Origin: Asanoa sp. WMMD1127
Lineage (GTDB): Bacteria; Actinomycetota; Actinomycetes; Mycobacteriales; Micromonosporaceae
Assembly: GCF_029626225.1 (NCBI RefSeq)
Contig: NZ_JARUBP010000001.1
Span: 7,378,001 to 7,442,000 of the forward strand
Direction of reading: 5' to 3'
DNA length: 64,000 nucleotides
Shown: positions 5,900 through 56,316 of the stretch, piece by piece
How the letters are laid out: every line of letters starts with the position of its first letter
How positions within the stretch are numbered: position 1 is the first letter of the stretch
Translations under genes and position numbers: made by a program
The notes under the pieces: generated by a model
Told to the model about the DNA's origin: nothing
Databases searched by the model: none
What the model saw: only the letters and a program-made list of their open reading frames with translations

Positions 5900-6409
5900 T
5901 TACTGGGAAGGGCTGGGGCTGGCCGCCGCGGGCATCGACGGCAGCACCACGGCCCGGTCCTCCCGGGCGATGCACCAGCCGCTGTCGATGTTGGTCACGA
6001 GGAAGGTCACGCCGACCGGGGTCGGCTTGCCGCCGGGCGGCGTGACGAGGATCGCGGCCGTCACCAGCTGCCCGTCGCCGTCGGCCCGGACGTCGGTCAC
6101 CTGCGCCGGCCCGACCTTGGTCTTCTTGTTGAAATCGCCGCCCTCACCCGTGGCGGTCTTGTCGAACGTGCCGACCAGCGTCGGGCAGAGCAGCTTGCGC
6201 CCGGCGGCCGTGTCCCGCTTGGTCATCGCCGCGAGGTAGGCCTCGATGTGCGCGCGGGCCTTCTGCGGGCTCTCGTCGACCGGCGCCGGATCCTCGCCCA
6301 CGATCTTGTCGGCGATCGAACAGCCGGCGAGGGGCGCCGCGAGGGCGACGGCCAGGGTCGCCACGGCGAGAGCACGACGTCGGGGCAGCACGGTTCGTGA
6401 GTCTCGCAC
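5900..6409 (-). CDS. Putative secreted lipoprotein
   Basis: 169 residues. The N-terminus has basic residues (RRR), a hydrophobic stretch and a lipobox LAGC, so it should be lipidated and anchored on the outer face of the cell membrane. The rest contains a KARAHIEAYLAAMTKRD segment and a predicted beta-rich half of the kind seen in small ketosteroid-isomerase/NTF2-like actinobacterial lipoproteins. That resemblance is loose. The GTG at 6409 is chosen because it places the signal peptide at the start; the frame extends to 6523. No partner gene is evident. Confidence 0.75.
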   Translation of the reverse strand: MRDSRTVLPRRRALAVATLAVALAAPLAGCSIADKIVGEDPAPVDESPQKARAHIEAYLAAMTKRDTAAGRKLLCPTLVGTFDKTATGEGGDFNKKTKVGPAQVTDVRADGDGQLVTAAILVTPPGGKPTPVGVTFLVTNIDSGWCIAREDRAVVLPSMPAAASPSPSQ

Positions 6410-10442: not shown

Positions 10443-12068
<1,626 letters not shown>

Positions 12069-19934: not shown

Positions 19935-20627
19935 GTGGAGGGTCGCCTACCAGATCCTGGCGACGCTCTGACCGGGGTCGAGCTGTTCGCCGGGCTCGAG
20001 CCTGAGGTGCGACAGCGGGTGATCGCCGCCGCGGTGCCCCGCACCTACCGCAAGGGCCAGCTGCTGTTCGTCGAGAACGACCCGGGCGAGTCGCTGATCG
20101 TGCTGCGCCGGGGCGCCGTCGCCGTGTTCGTCACCGCGCCGACCGGCGAGCGGGCCGTGCTCTCCGTCGTCCGTCCACCCGGGACACTCGGCGAGGTGTC
20201 GCTGCTGGACGCGTCGACCCGGTCGACGTCGGCCGAGGCGATCGAGGACTGCACCGCGCTCGCGCTGTCCCGCTCGGCGTTCATGGAACTGGTGCACTCC
20301 AACCCGCGCATCCTCGACGCGGTGATGCGTTCCCTCGGCGCGCTGATCCGCCGGCTCACCGAGCAGAACGCCGACCACGTCTTCCTCGACCTGCCCGGCC
20401 GGGTGGCCAAGACCCTGGTCCGGCTGGCCGGCGAGAGCCAGGCCCCGATGATCACCATCGAGCTCAACCAGAGCCAGCTCGCGGAGATGGCCGGCGGCTC
20501 GCGGCAGAGCGTCAACCAGGCGATCGGCTCGTTCGCCAACCGCGGCTGGTTGCGCACCGAGGGCCGGCGGATCGTCGTCACCGACGTGGCCGCCCTGCGC
20601 CGCCGCGCCGGCATGCCCGACCGCTAG
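19935..20627 (+). CDS. Crp/Fnr family transcriptional regulator
   Basis: 230-residue cytoplasmic regulator. The cyclic-nucleotide-binding barrel spans about 15-130. Its phosphate-binding cassette reads LGEVSLLDASTRSTSAEA, keeping the Glu and Arg that contact cAMP in E. coli CRP, so nucleotide binding is plausible. A C-helix at about 135-155 precedes the winged helix, whose ELNQSQLAEMAGGSRQSVNQ region is the DNA reader. No Fnr-type cysteines. Start GTG 19935 preceded by GGGAGGGG. A class III cyclase gene lies 0.5 kb downstream, which suggests a local signal-receptor pair. Confidence 0.93.
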   Translation: MEGRLPDPGDALTGVELFAGLEPEVRQRVIAAAVPRTYRKGQLLFVENDPGESLIVLRRGAVAVFVTAPTGERAVLSVVRPPGTLGEVSLLDASTRSTSAEAIEDCTALALSRSAFMELVHSNPRILDAVMRSLGALIRRLTEQNADHVFLDLPGRVAKTLVRLAGESQAPMITIELNQSQLAEMAGGSRQSVNQAIGSFANRGWLRTEGRRIVVTDVAALRRRAGMPDR

Positions 20628-20672: not shown

Positions 20673-20948
20673 TCAGTTGGCGGGCGGCGCGGTCGGGCCC
20701 ATCCAGCCCTTCGCCTCGGCGTCGTCCTTGGGCGGCGCGGTCGGGCCCATCCACCCGTCGGGGTCGGTGGCCGGGGGCTCCTCGTTGGTCGGCCCCATCC
20801 AGCCCTGCGACTTCACGTCGTCGCCGGCCACGACGCCGTCGGCCTGCAGCGCGGCCAAGGTGGCGGCGTCGACGTCGACGCTCGCCCCCGCGGCGTGCTC
20901 GACCCCGGTCTGGTCGGTCCAGTCCTTCTCGAGCCGTACGTGCACCAT
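20673..20948 (-). CDS. Small protein with three tandem GWMGPT repeats
   Basis: 91 residues, not recognised. Residues 1-45 form a compact acidic domain (VRLEKDWTDQTGVEHAAG, then VDVDAATLAALQADGVV). From residue 49 the protein is built of exact 16-residue units each opening GWMGPT (at 49, 65 and 81; the last is cut to 11 residues) and filled with Pro, Asp, Glu and Ala. No signal peptide, membrane helix or cysteine. Start ATG 20948 has an excellent CAGGAGG 7 nt upstream. Its promoter spacer is shared divergently with the cyclase gene. It could be a repeat-core peptide precursor, a binding scaffold or a structural linker; no modifying enzyme is adjacent. Confidence 0.75.
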   Translation of the reverse strand: MVHVRLEKDWTDQTGVEHAAGASVDVDAATLAALQADGVVAGDDVKSQGWMGPTNEEPPATDPDGWMGPTAPPKDDAEAKGWMGPTAPPAN

Positions 20949-21013
20949 CTATGTCCTCCTGTCGCGAATGGATCTCGGCCGCGGCCGACTCTACCCACGG
21001 GCCGCCACGGTGG

Positions 21014-21038
21014 ACTGTCCACTAGCCAACAGGACAGT
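21014..21038. promoter_or_regulatory. Inverted repeat in the repeat-peptide/cyclase divergent promoter
   Basis: ACTGTCC (21014-21020), 11-nt spacer, GGACAGT (21032-21038). It is centrally placed between the divergent starts at 20948 and 21098. A dimeric regulator, perhaps the adjacent Crp/Fnr protein, could bind here; the E. coli CRP consensus is not matched. Confidence 0.45.
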
Positions 21039-21097
21039 TCCTGACAGGCGGCGTGGCTGGATAGGCTGCGGACTCCGGAAAGTAGGAGGAGTCCGCC

Positions 21098-24000
21098 ATC
21101 CCCGCCGTCTGCGCACGCTGTGGCCGGACCCCCGCCGAGAACGACCGGTTCTGTGGCGGCTGCGGTGCCGAGCTCGCGCCACCGTGCCGTCAGTGCAACC
21201 GGCCCATCCCCACGGACGCCGCTTTCTGCACCAACTGCGGCACCCCGCGTGAAGGCGGCGGCCGCGCCCAGGTGAGCACCGCCGACCAGCAGGAGGACCG
21301 GCGCCGGGTCAGCGTGCTGTTCGTGGATCTGATCGACTTCACCCCGTACGCCGAGCGCTCCGACCCCGAGCAGGTCCGGGCGATGCAGACCGGCTTCTTC
21401 TCCGCCGCGCGCCGGGTCGTCGGGCAGTACGGCGGCGTGGTCGAGAAATACATCGGTGACGCGGTGATGGCGCTGTTCGGGGCCCCCGTCGCCACGGAGA
21501 CCGATCCGCTGCGCTGTGTCCGGGCCGGTCTCGAGCTGCAACGGGTGCTCTCCCGCTTCGCGCCCGACGGCGCCGACGCGGCCGGCCTGCGCTTCCGCGT
21601 CGGCGTCGCGACCGGCGAGGCGCTGGTCAACGTCGCCGCCGCGCGCGACGGTGGCCAGGCGATCGTGGCGGGCGACGTGGTCAACACCGCGTCCCGGCTG
21701 CAGTCGGCCGCGCCGCCCGGCGGCGTGCTGGTGTGCGGCAACACCTACGCGCTGACCAAGGACACCGTGCGCTTCCAGGCACAGCCGGCGCTCACCCTGC
21801 GCGGCCGGTCGACGCCGACCGAGGTCTGGGTGGCGGTGGCGCCGCGCCGCCGGTCCGCCGTCGAGAAGGAGCCCGACGCCACCCCGCTGGTCGACCGCGA
21901 GCACGAGCTGAGCCTGCTGGTCAACGCGCTGCACCGGTCGCTGCGGGACCAGCGGCCCCAGGTGGTCACGGTCTTCGGGCGCGCCGGCATCGGCAAGAGC
22001 CGGCTGGTCCGGGAGCTGTTCAAGCACACCGAGCAGCTGGTCGACGAGCCGGTCGCCTGGCGCACCGGCCGCTGCCCACCGTTCGGCGAGAACGTCGCGT
22101 TCGCCGCGGTGGCCGACATCGTCAAGGCCGAGTCGGGCATCCTCGACACCGACCCGGCCGGGACCGCCGCCGCCCGGTTGACCAAGACCGTGACCGAGCT
22201 GGTCGGCCCGGGCGAGGCCGACCGGCTGATCGACGCGCTGCGCCCTCTGGTCGGCCTGCCGGCCAGCCGGCTCGCCGCGGAGGAGGCCGAGTCCGCCTGG
22301 CGCCGGTTCCTCGTGGCGCTCGCCGGCCGCCGGCCCACCGTGCTGGTCTTCGAAGACCTGCACTGGGCCGACGAGAGCATGCTGCGGTTCGTCGAGCTGC
22401 TCGGGGCGTCCGCGCGCGACGTACCCCTGCTGCTGCTCTGCACCGCCCGCCCGGAGCTCATCGACCGCGACCCGAGCTGGGCCGCGTCGCTGACCGGGTC
22501 ACTGACCATCACGCTGCCGCCGCTGCGGGCAACCGGCATCGCCGCCCTCTACGCGCACATGTTCGGCCAGGCCGCGTTCTCCGCCGACATGCTCAGCCCG
22601 CTGGTCGAGCTGGCCGACGGCAATCCGCTCTACGCGCACGAGTACGTGCGGATGCTGATCGAGCAGGGCGCGCTGCGCCAGTCCGGCCGGGGGTGGTCGC
22701 TGGAGAAACGGCTCGACCTGCCGATGCCCGACAGCGTGCACGCGGTCATCGCCAACCGGCTCGACCTGCTCGACCCCAAGGACCGCACGGTGCTCTTCGC
22801 CGCCTCGGTGGTCGGCATGGTGTTCTGGCCCGGCGCGGTGGCCGCGGCCCTGGGTCGCAACGTCGAGTCGGTCGAGCGCTCGTTGCGCCGGCTGGAGCAG
22901 CGCGACTTCGTGCACGAGCAGCCCACGTCCACAATGGCCGGGCAGCAGGAGTTCTCCTTCGGGCACGTGCTGGTCCGCGACGTCTGCTACCAACGGCTGC
23001 CGCGCACCGAGCGGGTGGCCCGGCACGAGCGCACGGCCGAGTGGCTCGACGCGCTGTCCCGCGGCCGCGACACCGACCTGGCCGAGGTGCTGGCGCACCA
23101 CCGCTGGGCCGCCCACGAGATCGCCCGCACGCTCGGCGTCGACCCGGCGCCGTTCGCCGGGCCGGCCGGCGAGGCGCTGCACCGCGCGGCCCGGCGCGCG
23201 TACGCGCTGCACGCCCTCGACGCCGCCACCAACCACGTCGAGCGGGCGATCGCGCTGGCCGACCACTCCGACCCGGGCCGCCGGCTGCAGCTCGAGCTCC
23301 TCCGCACCGAGATCTCGTTCTACCGCGACCGCACCGAGTTCCTCACCGGCGGCGGGCCGGACCAACTGGTCGCGCTGGCCGACCGGCTCTACGCGCACGG
23401 CGACCCGGCCTGCGCGGCCCGCGCCTGGACCCTGCTCGGCCAGGCCGCGTGGCTGCGCGCCGACCGGCGGGCCGCGCTGTCCTGCCTCGACCGCGCGGTC
23501 GAGCTGTTCGACGGTGTGCCCGACAGCGCGGAGAAGGCCGACGCCTACGCCGAGCTGGGCCGGCTGCACATGCTCAACTACGAGCGCGACCCGGCGATCG
23601 CGGCGGCCACCGCGGCGACCGAGATCGCCGAGCGGCTCGGCAGCGCCGAGACACAGATCAACGCCCGGATCACCGTCGCGATGGCCCGCTACCAGTCCGG
23701 TGACCGCGGCGCGCTGGCCGAGCTCTACGAGGTCACCGAGTTCTGCCGCGCGCACGGCCTGCGCGCGCTGCCCCGGGCCATCCAGAACCTCGGCTACGCG
23801 CTGAGCGAGGAGGGCGACTGGGTCCGCTCCCGCGAGCTGGTCTCCGAGGCGGCGTCGGCCGTCCCCGCCGGGCACACGCTCAACACGGCGTTCTCCGGCG
23901 ACGCGATGCGGGCGTACTTCGGTGGCGAGTTCGACCGCCTGCTGGCCGCCGCGGACGCCTTCGTCGACACGCCCGAGGGGCGGTGGGACATCCAGGTCCG

Positions 24001-24631
24001 CGGTCTGCGGGCCAGTCTCCGGGTGCTCCGCGACCAGCCGGTGCCCACCGTCGGCGACCGCGACGACGTGGCCGACGCCCTGGAGTTCGCCCGCGACAGC
24101 GGCTTCTACCGGCCGCGCTGGACCACCCTCGGCCTGGCGGCGCAGGTCCGCGCCCTGCAGGGCCGGCTCGACGAGGCCGACGCGCTGCTCGACGAGCTGG
24201 CCACGTCGTGGTCCGCCGTGCCGGCGCTGGCCAGCGGCGAGTGGATCACGGCGGCGGCCTTCGCGTCGGCGCTGACCGGGCGCGACGCGGCGCTGCGGGT
24301 GCGCGGCATGCTCGACCGGGTCACCCACCGCACCCCGTGGGCCGAGGCGGCGCTGCGCACGGTGACCGCGGCGCTGGCCGCGGTCGGCGACGACGTGGCC
24401 GGTGCGGGCCAGCTCTACGCGGCGGCGGCGGGCATCTACGGGCAGATCCCGGCCGTGACCGACCGGATGCTGGCGCTCGCGCTGGCCGCCCGGAGCTTCC
24501 TCCAGGCGGGCGAGTCCGCGGCGGCGGAGCTGGCGCTGACCGAGGTCCGCGCGTTCGCGACCCGCAACCGGGCGCCGGGCCTGCTGCGGCTGACCGGGGC
24601 GCCGACGCCCGAGGCCACGCTGGCGAGCTGA
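21098..24631 (+). CDS. Zinc-ribbon/class III adenylyl cyclase/AAA ATPase/TPR protein, apparent ATC start
   Basis: Residues 1-48 hold four CxxC pairs (Cys5/8, 19/22, 30/33, 44/47), i.e. two zinc ribbons. The class III cyclase domain follows at about 70-225, with both metal aspartates (FVDLIDFT; EKYIGDAVMALFG) and AGDVVNTASRL, whose Lys/Asp pair favours ATP. An STAND-like ATPase has Walker A GRAGIGKSRL and Walker B VLVFEDLHWAD; helical TPR-like repeats fill the rest to 1177 residues. No ATG, GTG, TTG or CTG lies in frame between the stop at 21083 and GTG 21272. AGGAGGA sits 7 nt before ATC 21098, so initiation at ATC is inferred. If the start were GTG 21272 the zinc ribbons would be lost. Confidence 0.85.
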   Translation: MPAVCARCGRTPAENDRFCGGCGAELAPPCRQCNRPIPTDAAFCTNCGTPREGGGRAQVSTADQQEDRRRVSVLFVDLIDFTPYAERSDPEQVRAMQTGFFSAARRVVGQYGGVVEKYIGDAVMALFGAPVATETDPLRCVRAGLELQRVLSRFAPDGADAAGLRFRVGVATGEALVNVAAARDGGQAIVAGDVVNTASRLQSAAPPGGVLVCGNTYALTKDTVRFQAQPALTLRGRSTPTEVWVAVAPRRRSAVEKEPDATPLVDREHELSLLVNALHRSLRDQRPQVVTVFGRAGIGKSRLVRELFKHTEQLVDEPVAWRTGRCPPFGENVAFAAVADIVKAESGILDTDPAGTAAARLTKTVTELVGPGEADRLIDALRPLVGLPASRLAAEEAESAWRRFLVALAGRRPTVLVFEDLHWADESMLRFVELLGASARDVPLLLLCTARPELIDRDPSWAASLTGSLTITLPPLRATGIAALYAHMFGQAAFSADMLSPLVELADGNPLYAHEYVRMLIEQGALRQSGRGWSLEKRLDLPMPDSVHAVIANRLDLLDPKDRTVLFAASVVGMVFWPGAVAAALGRNVESVERSLRRLEQRDFVHEQPTSTMAGQQEFSFGHVLVRDVCYQRLPRTERVARHERTAEWLDALSRGRDTDLAEVLAHHRWAAHEIARTLGVDPAPFAGPAGEALHRAARRAYALHALDAATNHVERAIALADHSDPGRRLQLELLRTEISFYRDRTEFLTGGGPDQLVALADRLYAHGDPACAARAWTLLGQAAWLRADRRAALSCLDRAVELFDGVPDSAEKADAYAELGRLHMLNYERDPAIAAATAATEIAERLGSAETQINARITVAMARYQSGDRGALAELYEVTEFCRAHGLRALPRAIQNLGYALSEEGDWVRSRELVSEAASAVPAGHTLNTAFSGDAMRAYFGGEFDRLLAAADAFVDTPEGRWDIQVRGLRASLRVLRDQPVPTVGDRDDVADALEFARDSGFYRPRWTTLGLAAQVRALQGRLDEADALLDELATSWSAVPALASGEWITAAAFASALTGRDAALRVRGMLDRVTHRTPWAEAALRTVTAALAAVGDDVAGAGQLYAAAAGIYGQIPAVTDRMLALALAARSFLQAGESAAAELALTEVRAFATRNRAPGLLRLTGAPTPEATLAS

Positions 24632-55740: not shown

Positions 55741-56213
55741 CCCTGCGCGCCGCCGCGGAAACGCCGCGCGCCTACGCTGCGGAGCAGGCCCCCGCAGAAC
55801 CACAGCGCCCGCAGGTCACTGACAAAGGCGGCGCACGCCACCGCGGAAACGCACCGCGCCGGGCCTGCGCGCGGAGCAGGCGAACCCGCGCGGAAACACG
55901 GCGCCCGTGCCTAGTCACGACAAAGGCGGCGCACGCCGCCGCAGAAACGCACAGCCCGCGCCCACTCGCGCGGAAGGCAACGCGCGCGTCCACGGAAACG
56001 CACCGCCCGCGCCGGGTCACGGGGATGGCAGCGCACGCCGCCACGGAAACGGCACCACCCCCCGCACCCACTCACGCGGAAGGCAGCGCACGCCACCACG
56101 GAAAACGGCACCACCCACGCCCACTCGCGCGGAAGGCAGCGCACGCCGTCGCGGAAACGGCAGTGCCCTGCACCTCCTCACGCGGAAGGCAGCGCACGCC
56201 GCCGCCGAAACGG
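55741..56213. repeat. Imperfect tandem repeat, 51-55 bp period
   Basis: Units opening with GGC(A/G)(G/A)CGCRCGC begin at 55827, 55925, 55976, 56027, 56082, 56135 and 56188. The 98-bp interval is two degenerate units, and an earlier degenerate unit lies near 55741. Each contains GGCAGCGCACGCC, then CGGAAACGGCAC, a Pro-codon-like C-rich part and CACGCGGAA. The 51, 51, 55, 53 and 53 bp spacings shift the reading frame, so the array is not a protein repeat. Some units can fold (GGCGGC-GCAC-GCCGCC at 55925). The variable parts are too short for CRISPR spacers. Confidence 0.85.
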
Positions 56214-56316
56214 CACTGACCGCGTGTGCTGGGGAAGGAGCACTGCGCGTGACGCCGACGCAGCCGCGCGCCCGCCCGCGGCGACGCCGCGCGCCGGGGG
56301 GATGTGGCCGGGCCGG

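Follow-up and report, generated by a model that had tools for sequence, protein, structure and literature searches.

The small gene at 20673..20948 (minus strand) of the window, by which we mean the whole stretch of 64,000 nucleotides analysed here, encodes a previously unnamed protein of 91 amino acids that carries W-x-G-P motifs in a tail predicted to be disordered, and that appears from sequence comparisons to have co-evolved with the STAND adenylyl cyclase encoded divergently from it (21098..24631, plus strand). A functional coupling of the small protein to the cyclase, taking together the readings of a direct partner and of a scaffold, is probable. More specifically, we propose that it is a dedicated multivalent linear-motif partner, i.e., a regulator, acting directly on the cyclase, a proposal to which we give slightly less than an even chance. 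The computed support consists of the two-domain structure, the purifying selection acting on the motif, the synteny, the joint absence and joint replacement of both genes, and the domain make-up of the cyclase, while we infer that the two proteins bind, at which site and with which sign (activation or inhibition), and that cAMP is the product. A small gene accompanying one STAND cyclase throughout a bacterial family offers a candidate for its ligand or regulator.

The Small Gene and Its Two Parts

On comparative grounds, the 91-codon ORF is a real gene, since homologues are found across the family and the pN/pS is 0.35 across codons 1-41 (six congeneric copies); it also has an ATG start, conserved synteny and an AGGAGG Shine-Dalgarno sequence (20955..20960, minus strand). 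According to the structural model, its product comprises a folded N-terminal domain followed by a disordered tail, in which GWMGPT occurs three times, the pLDDT being 83-88 per ten-residue block in the N-domain (about residues 1-40) vs. 48-55 in the tail, which agrees with the separate small N-terminal domain put forward in an earlier, sequence-only reading of this DNA. The N-domain (codons 1-41; 20826..20948, minus strand) is predicted to be a beta-beta-helix resembling DUF7210. The main form of the small protein has no evident signal peptide.

The three motif units, all on the minus strand, comprise residues 49-54 (20787..20804), 65-70 (20739..20756) and 81-86 (20691..20708). The sequence-only reading had described exact 16-residue repeats. 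The starts at residues 49, 65 and 81 and the spacing of exactly 16 residues stand, but the linkers are inexact and the final unit is only 11 residues long, the exactness being limited to the six-residue core GWMGPT. A chance repeat was ruled out by the conservation of the motif and by shuffling, at least three W-x-G-P motifs having appeared in 1 of 200,000 shuffles of the window protein. Elsewhere in the window there are a tandem array of 51-53 base units in about six to eight copies (55815-56224) and a short tandem array of 24/36 base units (11556-11660).

The claim that the repeat protein lies outside the described families holds for Pfam and NCBIfam, where no model reached its cut-off, and for PHROGs, whose best match had only an E value of 0.16; literature searches also found nothing on this family. 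The N-domain shows a weak sequence likeness to DUF7210/DUF7302 domains (E 0.002-0.04, below cut-off). For DUF7210 (PF23843), the window protein scores 14.5 bits vs. a gathering cut-off of 27, and its relatives L063 and L140 score 13.9 and 18 bits, respectively, while L112 gives no match. There is also a weak fold likeness to phage proteins (best E 0.015, none with E <= 0.001). The PDB fold search with the N-domain gave no significant match, the top one being YqbF of B. subtilis (2hjq; E 0.53), and the PDB sequence search with the small-protein alignment A1 gave nothing. A relative of the N-domain with 36% identity was found on two viral contigs; in one of them it lies (L185:3582-3767) near an ORF that by eye resembles a portal gene. 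A prophage origin of the small gene was ruled out by its fixed chromosomal synteny and by the lack of any tblastn match in phage records.

Conservation of the W-x-G-P Motif

The element conserved among relatives is W-x-G-P-[T/G/S] and not GWMGPT, so that the repeat as first proposed has to be reduced to W-x-G-P. As had been anticipated, the repeat number differs between relatives, from 0 to 4 copies by pattern, and the linkers drift. Among 80 small proteins that are distinct within their first 60 residues, at least two [WY]-x-G-[PEA]-x units were found in 47, one in 16 and none in 17. Homologues without repeats, which the earlier reading had named as evidence against itself, thus exist in part of the family. 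A tail of the form IGPGP is present in 8 of the 80 proteins, and this tail, without Trp, is that of the type-B cassettes described below; among the five f13 proteins, four lack repeats and terminate in WVTC[ED].

The residue x takes the form of A, V, I, M, S, P, L or D between genes, whereas within a gene it is the same in 90 of 93 unit pairs vs. 26% by chance (47 genes with at least two units, which are related and not independent). Across the same 93 pairs there are 114 synonymous codon differences vs. 6 amino-acid differences, the neutral expectation being about 2.9 amino-acid changes for each synonymous change, and yet the five residues preceding the W differ in 289 of 465 within-gene comparisons. 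By these counts, the motif unit is under purifying selection while the linkers drift. The gene-specific x suggests either a match to a partner that varies between lineages or repeated duplication. The within-gene identity of x could partly reflect recent tandem duplication; synonymous differences between units occur in 36 of the 47 genes and, therefore, the duplication is not always recent.

Distribution and Gene Neighbourhood

Relatives of the small protein were detected in 178 of 300 sampled genomes of the family (protein search, E <= 0.01), the weakest of which may be false. With a 36-row profile, matches were found in 54 of 298 genomes of the order sample, 45 of them in the family, and in 7 of 296 genomes of the class sample, three of them in the family. 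Among the 13 matches outside the family, only those of five f13 genomes and one f5 genome are strong, the other seven having E values of 2e-4 to 0.01, and hence the small protein is, in these samples and by sequence matches, centred on Micromonosporaceae. The search of genome contigs returned Asanoa iriomotensis as the only relative. Eight of the 13 outside loci were fetched (G351, G536, G596, G651 and G760, all weak, were left out): the six strong ones adjoin a cyclase with 40-45% identity, and the weak L116 and L117 do not.

The sequence-only reading placed the small gene between a Crp/Fnr regulator and a divergent cyclase, and both neighbours are where it had put them. The regulator (19935-20627, plus strand) has cNMP_binding and HTH_Crp_2 domain matches and is kept with or without the other two genes. 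We analysed 39 distinct loci around small-protein matches, chosen to span genera and match strengths, and in 36 of them the small gene lies between the Crp/Fnr gene and the divergent cyclase, so that the cyclase is kept beside it among relatives as that reading expected. In L043, L070, L075 and L076 an extra gene separates Crp from the small gene; in L043 (2120-3853) and L075 (4244-5896) it looks by eye like a secreted glycoside hydrolase. In the window, the annotated neighbours are phosphofructokinase, Rv2179c-like ribonuclease, DUF1028, APH-type, Crp, cyclase and acyltransferase proteins; most loci also keep the acyltransferase past the cyclase, and the ribonuclease and phosphofructokinase past Crp.

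In the remaining three loci (L053, L054 and L063) the small protein is a paralogue located elsewhere, and no such cyclase is found within the fetched stretch. The paralogue of L053 and L054 (about 6000-6260) lies just upstream of, and on the same strand as, a large membrane-looking ORF, which in L054 has no Pfam match, and it is divergent to another protein without a Pfam match.

Joint Absence and Joint Replacement of the Small Gene and the Cyclase

A small-gene match was lacking in 122 family genomes; 20 of them were queried for Crp, which was present in 19, ruling out Crp as an obligate part of the system; 18 regions were fetched, leaving out G041 (no Crp match) and G038. Twelve of these loci have neither the cyclase nor the small gene, five have the cyclase alone, adjoining Crp with 116-190 bases between matches, and one (L140) encodes a diverged small protein with two WIGPT units. 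Therefore, when the small gene is truly lacking (17 loci), the cyclase is also missing at the locus in 12 and kept in five, figures that are not population frequencies because both sets of loci were picked by the presence or absence of a match. A whole-genome search revealed that 11 of those 12 genomes have only partial cyclase matches of 29-36% identity, about the level of the cyclase paralogue in the window's own genome (35%), and that the other one, G022, has a full-length relative elsewhere (43%). The latter gene (L191) has an ATG start and no adjoining WxGP protein; beside it, another divergent small ORF, which lacks the motif, was noticed by eye (about 2660-2830).

At the Crp locus, the small gene was never seen without the cyclase, and Crp is found both in their presence and in their absence. 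The pairing has exceptions, namely paralogues located apart from the cyclase and cyclases that lack a small gene. Not every such cyclase requires the small protein, given that five of the 17 loci keep the cyclase alone and that the G022 relative has no WxGP neighbour.

A further argument for the pairing comes from genus g4, where two types of loci can be compared. The Crp proteins are 97-100% identical between type A (L045 and L048) and type B (L057-L060 and L070), whereas the cyclases are 52-55% identical between types vs. 76-91% within them, and the N-domains 45-50% vs. 71-98%. This pattern, a near-identical Crp next to cyclases and N-domains that are far apart, implies at the sequence level a joint replacement of the small gene along with the cyclase, as a cassette. 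In 37 loci, the distances of the N-domain correlate with those of the cyclase (0.80) more than with those of Crp (0.50), and the partial correlation with the cyclase given the Crp distance is 0.73 (0 of 2000 permutations), although these values may be inflated by shared descent, for which the highly conserved Crp controls weakly; this analysis left out L046 (Crp cut by a contig end), L053, L054 and L063 (no cyclase) and the f13 and f5 loci. The comparison of the two types is a stronger argument than this correlation. Of the interpretations offered in the sequence-only reading, its alternative, a repeat scaffold read by another protein, fits best.

W-x-G-P Motifs on Other Peptides

When the L070 peptide was searched for in 121 genomes of genus g4, 15 matches were obtained. 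In 11 of them (L162-L172) a stand-alone peptide with three to seven WxGP units, whose x varies within the peptide, is encoded between the Crp and MFS genes, and the other four lie elsewhere; in four of the 11 (G277, G184, G281 and G268) the canonical small gene is found, by match positions, about 1.5 kb further on. The other type-B loci, L057-L060, have no stand-alone WxGP peptide within the fetched stretch. In L042 (1938-2330), a second gene, past the cyclase, encodes a protein with an apparent signal peptide (by eye) and five WxGP(T) units; when it was searched for among 61 genomes, only its own genome gave E < 0.001.

These peptides bear on two other explanations. The first one holds that the small protein is a scaffold or adaptor, whose WxGP motifs recruit a third protein while the cyclase is held by the N-domain, or with these two roles exchanged, coupling the cyclase to an input encoded elsewhere. 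Since the motif also occurs on a stand-alone peptide and on an apparently secreted protein, and is kept by the paralogues without a nearby cyclase, its reader may not be the cyclase; but besides the cyclase and Crp the genes searched for are of housekeeping type, with no obvious third partner among them, and the joint absence and replacement are more simply explained by a direct partnership. We regard the scaffold as possible, though on the unlikely side.

The second one, a multi-core precursor (a RiPP or a peptide signal), was also raised in the sequence-only reading: the repeats would be released by cleavage, might leave the cell, and would have as their target other cells or, as with peptide-sensing regulators, the TPR sensor. 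The layout of an N-terminal part followed by repeated short cores is indeed that of multi-core RiPP precursors, the repeat peptide of genus g4 adjoins an MFS gene in 11 of 15 matches, and the L042 protein seems to carry a signal peptide. Unlike such precursors, the small gene has no modifying enzyme encoded with it, as no maturase was found among the annotated window neighbours (the other loci were searched for those same neighbours) and no RiPP model among the NCBIfam or Pfam matches; nor is a signal peptide evident in the main form. In addition, the N-domain is predicted to be folded and is weakly like the phage DUF7210 domain, and x stays the same throughout a gene but varies from one gene to the next. 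This explanation has lost ground accordingly and is clearly unlikely.

The Divergent Promoter

The small gene and the cyclase are separated by a divergent promoter region of 149 bases (20949..21097), according to the intergenic alignment. Its central element, CTGTCCACTAGCCAACAG (21015..21032, plus strand), has only one exact copy in the genome. The block around CTGTCCACTAGCCAACAG is conserved, and flanked by two −10-like blocks facing outwards (by eye), in 13 aligned loci, picked from 42 intergenic stretches among those showing the block; type-B and several other loci lack it. As a regulon site, CTGTCCACTAGCCAACAG was rejected, because its three other matches with 3 mismatches equal those of the reversed-pattern control (2 forward, 1 reverse). 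The cAMP-linked expression that the sequence-only reading suggested was not supported, the Crp gene being retained at loci that lack both the small gene and the cyclase.

A shared promoter with a conserved central element could also mean that the small protein is an output, i.e., a small effector co-regulated with the cyclase that plays no role in regulating the enzyme. A merely co-regulated gene would not be expected to be replaced together with the cyclase as a cassette, and we consider this highly unlikely.

The STAND Cyclase and Its Start Codon

Counted from 21098, the cyclase has 1177 residues and comprises a double zinc ribbon, a class III cyclase domain, an AAA_16/STAND ATPase and a TPR-like solenoid, as deduced from domain matches, the structural model and the alignment. 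Its N-terminal piece matches DZR (E 6.8e-10). Residues D76, K116, D120, D192 and R199 are present in 35 of 35 aligned sequences and N195 in 33 of 35 (alignment A2, 35 of 41 rows; L052, L058, L067, L070, L072 and L074 were left out), as in class III cyclases; we take them to be the metal Asp pair, the substrate Lys/Asp and the transition-state Asn/Arg. The match to AAA_16 (E 3.6e-20) and the P-loop residues G298, K299 and S300, invariant in 35 of 35, are those of a NOD-type P-loop ATPase. The model predicts a helical solenoid at about residues 660-1165, with pLDDT mostly above 80 and a dip near 920-930, and its best PDB fold match is 6mfv, a STAND protein with TPR (E 5.4e-13), followed by class III cyclases. 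On the strength of this predicted solenoid and the 6mfv match, the enzyme has the C-terminal TPR-type sensor of STAND proteins, the Pfam TPR matches being below cut-off. Between the type A and type B cyclases, the identity is 43% in the solenoid, 45% in the zinc ribbon, 65% in the cyclase domain and 57% in the ATPase; the lower values in the solenoid and the zinc ribbon are as expected of a sensor or partner-binding region.

A mechanical listing placed the cyclase start at GTG 21272. This start was rejected, since the zinc ribbon upstream of it appears to be translated: its eight Cys are invariant in 35 sequences, and the pN/pS over this stretch is 0.13 (five congeneric copies). The putative start is an ATC (21098..21100, plus strand) behind an AGGAGG Shine-Dalgarno sequence (21084..21089, plus strand), as there is no ATG, GTG, TTG or CTG between the in-frame TAG 21083 and the first zinc-ribbon Cys. 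An ATC or ATT is found exactly four codons 5' of this Cys in 41 of 50 cyclases and at three or five codons in four more, giving 45 of 50, all with a Shine-Dalgarno-like stretch upstream (lax pattern), and the other five have GTG or ATG; the start-calling script favoured ATC/ATT wherever present. In 36 of the 50, the stretch from the upstream stop to the Cys contains some in-frame ATG, GTG, TTG or CTG, which in a few cases such as L040, L061 and L072 stands only 6-9 codons before the Cys, while the remaining 14, including the window, have none. Thus, an AUC or AUU appears to be the start codon of 45 of the 50 cyclase genes, although in single cases a canonical start is possible, given those 36. 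L115 has ATG where its relatives L111, L112 and L114 have ATC, and a GTG stands just before the ribbon in L157, a paralogous cyclase of the same genome, and in L161, a distant relative.

If confirmed, AUC/AUU starts in 45 of 50 orthologues would represent a family-wide throttling of the translation of a signalling enzyme through its start codon. The pcnB gene of E. coli reportedly has an AUU start. In S. aureus, infC, cvfC1 and ccpN are described as having AUU or AUA starts with an extended Shine-Dalgarno motif and an expression that is held low (PMC13009471). Unlike these S. aureus and E. coli cases, the present starts are mostly AUC, belong to a signalling enzyme of Actinobacteria and are deduced from sequence only.

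Proposed Mechanism and Comparison With Known Systems

Class III cyclases need dimers. In the direct partnership that we favour, the N-domain would be a small phage-type (DUF7210-like) fold and the disordered tail would display, as a rule, one to four W-x-G-P-[T/G/S] docking motifs, whose copies would bind one conserved surface multivalently. This surface would most likely be on the cyclase, in its TPR-like sensor solenoid or its ATPase module. Motif binding would set the threshold for STAND multimerisation, by which the cyclase domains would be brought together; a multivalent partner on the STAND part might link subunits to each other or keep them in the inactive state. Crp-type proteins, of which the neighbour is one, would then sense the cAMP produced.

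A bolder version, in which the W-x-G-P repeats are a ligand system gating cAMP synthesis by the STAND cyclase, with the repeat number tuning the avidity for the TPR sensor and the enzyme kept at a low level tied to IF3 through its AUC/AUU start, is doubtful as a whole, and we give it a low probability. As part of this version, the lineages whose repeats are found on a separate peptide encoded next to a transporter, or following a signal peptide, would hint at peptide-gated cAMP signalling between cells.

The DUF7210 and DUF7302 domains and YqbF are the nearest, if weak, likenesses of the N-domain, from which the small gene differs in being chromosomal, with a fixed locus, a paired cyclase and a WxGP tail. 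In Pycsar systems, a comparison suggested by the matches of the cyclase domain to PADLOC PycC models (E 4.5e-13), a cyclase is likewise present; unlike them, the locus has no TIR or membrane effector that we could find, its Crp protein has an HTH (the PADLOC effector matches cover residues 22-146 only, the cNMP part, and HTH_Crp_2 is present) and the cyclase has a STAND-TPR architecture. Pycsar was rejected, as no cyclic-nucleotide-gated toxic effector was found. These matches, the weak phage likeness of the N-domain and its relative on a viral contig near a portal-like ORF would also suit a guard or decoy, in which the STAND cyclase would monitor a domesticated phage-type N-domain, much as phage proteins are monitored by STAND Avs proteins. 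But the conserved synteny is with pfk and the ribonuclease and not with a defence island, the PADLOC matches are to generic cyclase and cNMP domains plus one weak match of the ATPase part, no effector was found and tblastn of phage records was empty, which makes it the least probable of the explanations considered, and a very improbable one.

The closest parallels to the partnership proposed here are MalT and AfsR. To our knowledge, the small protein has no likeness to MalY, the protein partner of MalT. As described in PMC4381067, STAND proteins are inactive until an inducer binds the sensor, after which they multimerise, and MalY is a protein inhibitor that binds resting MalT at the NOD; in AfsR, the NOD and the TPR are reported to inhibit its own effector (PMC10936776). 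Like MalT and AfsR, the cyclase has a STAND ATPase, a C-terminal TPR-like sensor and an N-terminal effector; unlike them, its effector is a class III cyclase, and its proposed partner is a tiny protein with multivalent motifs.
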